Shown here one piece after another: positions 32,685 through 34,987 of a DNA stretch of 34,987 nt. The DNA comes from Parcubacteria group bacterium Gr01-1014_17 (GTDB taxonomy: Bacteria > Patescibacteriota > Minisyncoccia > Phycocordibacterales > UBA10002), in assembly GCA_007376285.1 (NCBI GenBank), contig VMFZ01000006.1, positions 1 through 34,987 on the forward strand, given 5' to 3'. The notes below the pieces were generated by a model that saw only the letters and a list, made by a program, of their open reading frames with translations, did not search any database and had not been told where the DNA came from. The translations under genes were made by a program, and so were the position numbers. Positions within the stretch are counted from its first letter, which is position 1, and each line of letters begins with the position of its first letter.

Positions 32685-32824
32685 TATTTTGCAAAATACT
32701 GAGATACACTAACTCTGACGACCGTTAAAGATAGTGTGTGCACAATTTAGCATTAAGATACGATCGTGGCTTAATGCTAAATCATAAGAACACCCGATGT
32801 TGATAGGCGGCAAACATCGGGTGT
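32685..32824. repeat. Modular intergenic palindrome cluster
   Basis: TATTTTGCAAAATA (32685-32698), ACACTA..TAGTGT module (32706-32737), ATTTAGCATTAAGATACGATCGTGGCTTAATGCTAAAT (32745-32782), family H hairpin (32790-32824). Confidence 0.8.
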
Positions 32825-33838
32825 CATTCTTTGACGGACTAACAAACGCCACTCTTCTACTTGCTTTCGTATCTGCTCATCCGCGCTCGGAAGCGCGGCA
32901 AATGAGGCGCGCGCGGCGTGCCCAAGTCGGGCGCGCAACTCCGTATCCTCAATAACGCGTCTCATCGCAGCAACGAGCGCATCTTCATCGCTGACCGGAA
33001 TCACGATTCCGTTTTCTCCATTTTTAATAAACTCTCCTGCACATCCGACATCCGTCATAATAATTGGAAGGCCGTAGGCAGCGGCTTCCGTCACGACAAC
33101 TCCCCATCCTTCTGAATCGGAGGTAAGCAAAAAGGCGTCTGCTTCTTGATAATACTTCTCTAGATTTTCCTGCCTCCCTTCAAACCTTATCTTCTCTTCT
33201 ACTTTTTCGCTTTTCGCTTTTCGCCCTAAGTTCTTCTGCTCCGGGCCATCTCCGACAATGACCAATCGCGCCTGCGGAAACTTTCTTACCACCTGTGCAA
33301 ACGCGCGAATCTGGAGCGCGATGTTTTTCACAGGAACAAGCCGACCAACGGTAAGAAATACAAAATCCCCCCCTTCCTCCCCCCCTTTACAAAGGGGGGG
33401 CTGGGAGGGGATTTGTGTATAAACAGGAAGCACATACGAGCGCGGAGAAATTTCGCGTCTTAATCTCTCACTCACGACTCTTATCTTATCCGCGTGGCGC
33501 AATACAAATCGCGCAAGCAATTTACGCACGCCGCGCAACTTCTCAAACCCGTGAACCTGCACTTCCAGTGGTATGCGAGATTTCTTTGCGAGCATATACG
33601 CAAGTAACGCCAAATACGAGGTGTCTTGAACGGTAATAAAGTCAAAAAGCTTTTCCGAAAGAACTTTTCTCGCTTGTTTCCACAACTTAAAAAACTTCGC
33701 GACCTTACTGCCGCTATGCGAAAATGGCGTTAATACAACAATTTCTCCAGCAGCGGCGGCAAGCGTAGCGAGCCGCTTTTGCACTAGCGTTCCTTCTTTC
33801 AACACCTCTTTATCTAAACTTAAATTAAGTACGCGCAT
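32777..33838 (-). CDS. GT4-type glycosyltransferase
   Basis: FVFLTVGRLVPVKNIALQIRAFAQVVRKFPQARLVIVGDGPEQKNL..DAFLLTSDSEGWGVVVTEAAAYGLPIIMTDVGCAGEFI; start MRVLNLSLDKEVL. Confidence 0.93.
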   Translation of the reverse strand: MRVLNLSLDKEVLKEGTLVQKRLATLAAAAGEIVVLTPFSHSGSKVAKFFKLWKQARKVLSEKLFDFITVQDTSYLALLAYMLAKKSRIPLEVQVHGFEKLRGVRKLLARFVLRHADKIRVVSERLRREISPRSYVLPVYTQIPSQPPLCKGGEEGGDFVFLTVGRLVPVKNIALQIRAFAQVVRKFPQARLVIVGDGPEQKNLGRKAKSEKVEEKIRFEGRQENLEKYYQEADAFLLTSDSEGWGVVVTEAAAYGLPIIMTDVGCAGEFIKNGENGIVIPVSDEDALVAAMRRVIEDTELRARLGHAARASFAALPSADEQIRKQVEEWRLLVRQRMTPDVCRLSTSGVLMI

Positions 33839-34814
33839 GGGTACTACTATAACTCGCCAGAATGCGTTTTTGTAGCGCAAATGTATTCCCATGTTTGCAC
33901 AAACCAACATAGGAAAAAAAATTATGCTCATTCACTCGTTTTAACATTCTCCGCCGCGTAGCCGTCCGCAAAACGCGATGATTCGGAAAATGCACCCAGC
34001 CGAGGAAGTCAACTCCGGAAGCAAGAGTGGCGATGGATATTTTGTCAGGATGTAGTGCAAGGCGGAGTTTTTCGGAAAGAAATCGGGATAGGAGTGAAAT
34101 AATAGAGTAGAGAAAGTCCTTGTTTTGTGAAAAGATGACGAAATCATCGGCATAGCGGATATAGTATTTGACCTTGAGTTCGTCTTTAACGAACTGGTCA
34201 AACTCATTCATATAGATATTAACGAAGAGCTGGGAAGTAAGGTTGCCGAGCGGGAGACCTTTTCCTGTTGTTTCGGAATTGAAACTGTTAATGATTTCTT
34301 TGAGAAGCCGGAGAATATCTGTATCGGGAATTGAGCGAGCTTGAATATTGAGGAGAATCGCATGGTCAATGTTAGCGAAAAACTTGCGGATGTCGCATTT
34401 AAGAATATAGCAGGTGCGTTTTCCATTTTCGCCAAGCCACGACGCAAAAGAGTAAAAACGGTTGAGTGCCAGATGTGTTCCTTTTCCAACACGACACGAA
34501 TATGAATCATATATAAATTCTTGGTCAAAGAATGGGTAGAGTATGCGATACAGTGCGCGATGCAAGAGGCGGTCACGAACCGTTGCTTTGTGAATATCTC
34601 TTTCCTTTGGTTCGTAAATCTTAAAATGCCTATAAGAATCGTGTCGGTATGTTCTGTTGCACAGACATTCGTGAAGCGTTAGGATGTGTTCCATTAGCCG
34701 CAGTTGAAACTCTTGCACATCGTGTCTTCTCCGTTTTCCTTTCACAAACTCTTTCCACGCCGCGAGCAGGTTTTCAACAGAAATAACTTCGCCAAAGGTA
34801 TGAATGAATTTCAT
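33825..34814 (-). CDS. Reverse transcriptase, DGR-type motif 4
   Basis: ILKCDIRKFFANIDH, GLPLGNLTSQLFVNIYMNEFDQFVKDEL, YYIRYADDFVIFSQ; LGNLTSQ in place of QGxxxSP is typical of DGR-type RTs. Likely start MKFIHTFGEVISVENLL. Confidence 0.88.
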   Translation of the reverse strand: MKFIHTFGEVISVENLLAAWKEFVKGKRRRHDVQEFQLRLMEHILTLHECLCNRTYRHDSYRHFKIYEPKERDIHKATVRDRLLHRALYRILYPFFDQEFIYDSYSCRVGKGTHLALNRFYSFASWLGENGKRTCYILKCDIRKFFANIDHAILLNIQARSIPDTDILRLLKEIINSFNSETTGKGLPLGNLTSQLFVNIYMNEFDQFVKDELKVKYYIRYADDFVIFSQNKDFLYSIISLLSRFLSEKLRLALHPDKISIATLASGVDFLGWVHFPNHRVLRTATRRRMLKRVNEHNFFSYVGLCKHGNTFALQKRILASYSSTHART

Positions 34815-34845
34815 AAAAAAGATTCTATGAAGACCCCCCCCCCAA

Positions 34846-34987
34846 CGGGTTTTGCCAGTGTTGGAGAAAATGAAGAAAGCATACCAATTATGGCGCCTCA
34901 TCCACGAGCGATTACCGAAAACACAACGATACACTATCGGTAACCGCATAGATAAACTCTTCGTTGAGAGCATAGAGGCAATCGTTA
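34846..34987 (+). CDS. Partial four-helix-bundle (Avd/S23-like) protein running off the window
   Basis: Plus frame from 34846: RVLPVLEKMKKAYQLWRLIHERLPKTQRYTIGNRIDKLFVESIEAIV; the nearby ATG at 34827 is out of frame across a C10 tract. Confidence 0.7.

Follow-up and report, generated by a model that had tools for sequence, protein, structure and literature searches.

Why should a diversity-generating retroelement (DGR) carry an accessory gene whose core is out of frame with the nearest start codon, and why should this gene face the reverse transcriptase (RT) gene at a distance of a few bases? These questions are raised by the right-hand end of the stretch of DNA analyzed here, the window, which has a length of 34,987 nucleotides and comprises the entire contig C21 of a 610-kb host genome (96% complete).

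Reverse transcriptase and avd at the contig end

On the minus strand, positions 33825..34814 encode an RT of 329 amino acids with a YADD motif and a GLPLGNLTSQ motif, the latter being invariant or nearly invariant. The best relative in the PDB is the DGR RT of Bordetella phage BPP-1 (8ub7, E=2.6e-44), followed by a group II intron RT (1e-21), and the named relatives almost all stem from Patescibacteria (Nomurabacteria, Zambryskibacteria, Kaiserbacteria, Yanofskybacteria, and others). These matches identify the protein as a DGR-type RT, in agreement with the preliminary description of this locus. Several RTs from the same genus (L018/L023, L025/L027, L020/L028, and L026/L029) were found as two-piece matches in different frames and appear to be encoded by broken or frameshifted genes.

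The plus strand carries the start of avd. The ATG closest to the C tract (34827..34829) is separated by 12 bp from the RT start at position 34814, and the tract itself, exactly 10 Cs at 34834..34843, begins 20 nt from that start, on the upstream side of the RT gene. The Avd core (RVLPVLEKMKKAYQLW...) follows with its 5' part at 34846..34987, where the contig end cuts it. Translation from ATG 34827 yields MKTPPPTGFASV..., while RVLPVLEKMKKAYQLW... sits in a different frame; only tracts with a length divisible by three place start codon and core in one frame, and the 10 Cs present here do not. Moreover, a TGA (34828-34830) lies in the frame of the Avd core just 5' of the tract, and Avd, as assembled, is therefore closed off from any upstream start. 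A second ATG at 34800..34802 (plus strand) is in phase with ATG 34827 and antisense to codon His5 of the RT gene; many relatives have an ATG at the equivalent place. Internal TTG, GTG, or ATG codons at 34852, 34858, 34861, and 34870 may yield truncated Avd in the OFF state. The frameshift at the C tract and the head-to-head arrangement with the RT gene had both been proposed earlier, and both are confirmed by the sequence. In the whole 610-kb genome there are only three C runs of at least nine bases, two of which are located at avd starts (C21 and C13); the C run at this position is far beyond chance.

The four-helix, Avd-like nature of the gene had likewise been suggested before. The piece present in the window matches profile NF033474 with E=1e-4; its continuation on contig C29 matches the same profile with 2e-10, a score that does not reach the curated threshold of this model (80 bits), and PHROG 3206, 'Avd protein of DGR', with 1e-8. 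The structural model for Avd from a relative is a four-helix bundle (pLDDT 96) that matches Avd of BPP-1 (4DWL) with a TM score of 0.84. Profile matches and the predicted fold thus concur in assigning the peptide at the contig end to Avd, the four-helix bundle accessory protein of DGRs.

Remaining parts of the element

Both an extension of the contig to the right and a search for pairs of template repeat (TR) and variable repeat (VR), which the preliminary description had proposed as checks, were carried out and were successful. The final 99 bases of C21 (34889..34987) recur unchanged at the end of C13 and at the beginning of reverse-complemented C29, as in an assembly-graph branch at a repeat. 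C29 completes avd (L009:5409 down to 5080, minus strand, with the stop at L009:5080). Because C21 and C13 share the end of C29, we infer that both continue into the 3' part of avd; in many relatives, the whole arrangement is found on a single contig. On C29, the avd stop is immediately followed by the TR, which lies on the RT strand, and then by a target gene (L009:3991-4659), an open reading frame of 222 amino acids whose end is encoded by the VR. A family search with the target protein gave no match. All 18 differences between this VR and the TR fall on TR adenines. A second VR (G000:C14:41473-41598, L032) is located far from any RT, sits at the end of a relative of the C29 target gene, and differs from the TR at 22 positions, 17 of which are TR adenines; it is read as a distant target that draws on the same TR. 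A-biased repeat pairs are present in 196 of 226 relatives. Sequence features characteristic of DGRs, i.e., a TR/VR pair with changes at adenines and a VR at the C-terminal end of the target, are thus recognizable in addition to the RT.

Another RT (74% identical) is encoded on C13, again head-to-head with an avd start; the tract at this start is C11, and avd is likewise out of frame. The second RT gene (L010:10345-12135) is located directly upstream of rpsH (uS8) of the spc ribosomal-protein operon on the same strand, which points either to an insertion into this operon or to a broken gene order at this place.

Repeats at the start of avd in Patescibacteria

The interval from the RT start to the Avd core was compared in 239 distinct head-to-head loci from Patescibacteria, from which duplicates had been removed, as the phylum sample fetched a few loci of the order again. 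Tract lengths represent the assembly consensus, with one genome per species. A simple sequence repeat is present at the avd start in 215 of the 239 loci and absent from 24. The unit is C in 183 cases, a dinucleotide in 26 (20 CT, 3 AC, and 3 AG), a tetranucleotide in five, all with different units, and a pentanucleotide, ACAGG, in one. Units of three or six bases do not occur among the 215 repeat-bearing loci. Homopolymer tracts on the avd strand always consist of C and never of G. With 216 repeats in 31 kb versus 22 in 900 kb of flanking DNA, repeat density is about 280-fold that of the flanks; a frame-shifting 5' repeat, as is typical of contingency genes, is therefore present beyond chance. 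Related loci retain a repeat while its unit changes, as exemplified by AACC in L040, CAAT in L143, and ACGA in L222.

Viral contigs, mostly distant phage DGRs, served as controls, and none of 62 same-strand phage DGRs has a repeat at avd. Three IMG/VR contigs (L288, L289, and L290) carry head-to-head DGRs of the clade studied here that are repeat-free with avd in frame; the proposed switch may thus be peculiar to copies encoded by cells. In three other such contigs (L291, L293, and L309), a repeat is present at avd.

Reading frames of avd

A locus was scored as ON when the avd frame reaches an upstream ATG. This applies to 61 of the 215 loci with a repeat, the other 154 being OFF, versus 23 of the 24 loci without (Fisher p ~7e-11, with loci treated as independent and relatedness ignored). 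The sole OFF locus without a repeat (L158) has an N gap at the expected tract position. As a yardstick for this scoring, 46 of 62 same-strand phage avd genes are ON; the remaining 16 may use other start codons or represent clipped matches. The ON fraction of repeat loci is statistically indistinguishable from one third (p=0.13), and loci with non-homopolymer repeats behave similarly (10 of 32 ON, 22 of 32 OFF). For 213 loci, the phase of the nearest open ATG relative to avd was recorded: 53 are in phase, 98 are one base over, and 62 are two bases over. The excess of the one-base-over class (98/213) has a chi-square p of 3e-4 when kinship is ignored; such p-values are too small, because related loci are not independent. 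A search for near-identical alleles differing in tract length yielded only L123/L124, where L124 has an N gap, and the paralogues on C21 and C13.

The OFF genes are not decayed: avd is open over at least 90 residues in 148 of 151 of them. Among the 154 OFF loci, 11 have a GTG or TTG in frame with avd on the 5' side of the repeat. ON and OFF lengths across species, together with undecayed OFF genes, are what characterizes contingency genes. Furthermore, TR/VR divergence is the same in both groups, with a median of 17 adenine changes each and about 94% of all changes at adenine. If Avd is needed for diversification, OFF loci must have been ON before, which is suggestive of switching; equal VR divergence would, however, also be expected if Avd leaks or is dispensable.

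Proposed switching of DGR activity

Taking these findings together, we consider it very likely that the window contains a Patescibacteria-type DGR in which avd is a translational contingency locus. This reading draws directly on the DGR anatomy, the conservation of the repeat, the mixed frames, the intact OFF genes, and the diversified VRs at OFF loci. Slipped-strand mispairing during replication would alter the length of the C tract just 3' of the avd start codon. Lengths that are multiples of three would join the ATG to the Avd core, Avd would be made, and the cells concerned could perform mutagenic retrohoming from TR to VR. All other lengths would lead to an early-terminated peptide, and target genes would stay fixed. 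Slippage in the living population and the loss of full-length Avd from OFF cells are steps that we infer from the sequences. In BPP-1, nonsense mutations in avd reduce retrohoming to ~1e-9 (PMC12875486); by analogy, toggling of Avd should gate mutagenic retrohoming, and a loss of retrohoming without Avd would be expected in the clade studied here, as the need for Avd is known from BPP-1. Over longer times, a slippery repeat appears to persist while its unit turns over (C, CT, CA, AG, tetranucleotides, ACAGG), which argues for a DGR activity that is toggled stochastically and reversibly. It is also likely that throughout the Patescibacteria the repeat at avd acts as a stochastic, heritable ON/OFF gate on DGR hypermutation, with only a minority of cells diversifying at any time. 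Against the contingency reading speak the uneven distribution of the three phases, the 24 of 239 loci that have no repeat, the internal start codons from which OFF cells could make a truncated Avd, and the equal VR divergence at OFF loci.

Alternative explanations

Programmed frameshifting or transcriptional slippage at the tract would provide every cell with a small, fixed fraction of full-length Avd, such that Avd would be low and not switched. Poly-C is slippery for proline tRNAs, the one-base-over phase is the commonest, the VRs at OFF loci are as diverged as those at ON loci, and the first eight loci with an ATG adjoining the tract were all out of frame. This last argument is weakened by the larger set, in which all three phases occur. 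In addition, CT, CA, AG, and tetra- or pentanucleotide repeats are found at the same place and are ON in 10 of 32 cases, although no suitable slip of ribosome or polymerase would be expected on them, and repeat-free loci are in frame in 23 of 24 cases. Both processes are therefore unlikely explanations.

We regard it as very unlikely that the repeat acts mainly on the RT gene. The tract is part of the RT leader wherever the genes are arranged head-to-head, as in the window, where it starts 20 nt before the RT gene, and its length could determine how strongly the RT is expressed or what shape the TR-RT RNA adopts. However, the total absence of three- and six-base units points to a role in the reading frame, the distance between the repeat and the RT start varies widely, and units unrelated in sequence substitute for one another. 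A side effect of the tract on the RT leader, in addition to the proposed translational switch, is possible.

Even less probable is an assembly or sequencing artefact, i.e., genes that are truly in frame with miscalled tract lengths. Homopolymers are error-prone, and of six N runs in 179 loci, three (L105, L124, and L158) fall within the ~130-bp tract region. Tracts that are mixed in length or difficult to assemble would give such a pattern, which is thus also suggestive of the proposed switch. On the other hand, 72% OFF exceeds what rare miscalls would give, and the repeat itself is present in 215 of 239 independent assemblies. Homopolymer miscalls are not the cause, because non-homopolymer repeats are OFF as often (22/32) and ON in only 10 of 32 loci; a single miscalled homopolymer is thereby ruled out as a general cause. 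A fixed sequencing error in the C10 tract of the window is possible, although it fails to explain the phylum-wide pattern.

An inversion or a chimeric contig join as the origin of the head-to-head pair, for which the location of the contig end within avd at a repeat could be quoted, has a practically negligible probability and is rejected, because avd lies upstream of the RT gene on the opposite strand in all 124 RT loci of the same order with a detectable avd, and the two genes are head-to-head in 63 of 64 loci of the phylum sample and in 75 of 76 named genomes. The head-to-head layout is thus normal for this DGR clade. Among the three origins considered in the preliminary description, a phase-variable start is strongly supported by the comparative evidence, while inversion and chimeric assembly are both discarded. 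In two same-strand exceptions, L200 and L216, avd is located 706 and 1891 bp upstream of the RT gene, respectively.

Relation to known systems

The DGR of BPP-1 (mtd, avd, TR, brt) and that of the window have homologous RT and Avd proteins, similar in sequence and fold, a TR/VR pair, and adenine-specific changes in common. In BPP-1, avd, TR, and brt are all located on one strand (PMC12875486), whereas in the window DGR avd is inverted, is head-to-head with the RT gene, and bears a slippery repeat at its start, and the TR, on the RT strand, comes after the avd stop. The window DGR very probably belongs to DGR clade 2 of Roux et al. 2021, which is restricted to Patescibacteria (PMC8144416) and, like the present set, comprises cell-encoded DGRs. 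The words Avd, accessory, orientation, and homopolymer are absent from the main text of that study, which left undecided whether tighter control of DGR activity or stronger selection accounts for the slower turnover of targets in cell-encoded DGRs (PMC8144416).

With the simple sequence repeat (SSR) contingency loci of Campylobacter, Haemophilus, Neisseria, and Helicobacter, the avd loci share mono-, di-, tetra-, or pentanucleotide repeats close to the start of the coding sequence, the occurrence of both ON and OFF frames, and OFF genes that are intact. Textbook loci of this kind mostly switch surface structures or DNA methyltransferases, whereas the gene switched here belongs to a machine for targeted mutagenesis. 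The second-order logic, in which a slippery repeat governs a system that is in turn a source of variation, is that of phasevarions and mutator switches; in contrast to these, there is neither an epigenetic regulon nor a global mutator, and mutagenesis is aimed at VR-bearing genes. In searches of openly licensed papers, which also covered contingency loci in Patescibacteria, no title or abstract linked DGRs to slipped-strand phase variation. DGRs and SSR phase variation are each known; their combination appears to be new. If true, an Avd slippage switch would represent a concrete mechanism by which cells keep a hypermutation machine from constant running, one that needs no regulator and suits tiny genomes. 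Many Avd genes of Patescibacteria would then look frameshifted and might escape gene callers.

Further observations

The third C run of at least nine bases in the host genome (L368:1796-1805, i.e., C27:1796-1805) is a C10 tract on the minus strand, followed by GTGA and then TATAAT, about 50 bp upstream of a gene for a large secreted or surface-like protein (L368:1-1746, minus strand). It looks like a phase-variable promoter spacer, although a consensus scan found no promoter at this run. In the window itself, a C-rich/G-rich palindrome, cccccctttacaaaggggggg, is located at 33360-33420 within a glycosyltransferase gene (32777-33931); it stays in frame, encodes PPLCKGGEEGG, and resembles an inserted repeat element.
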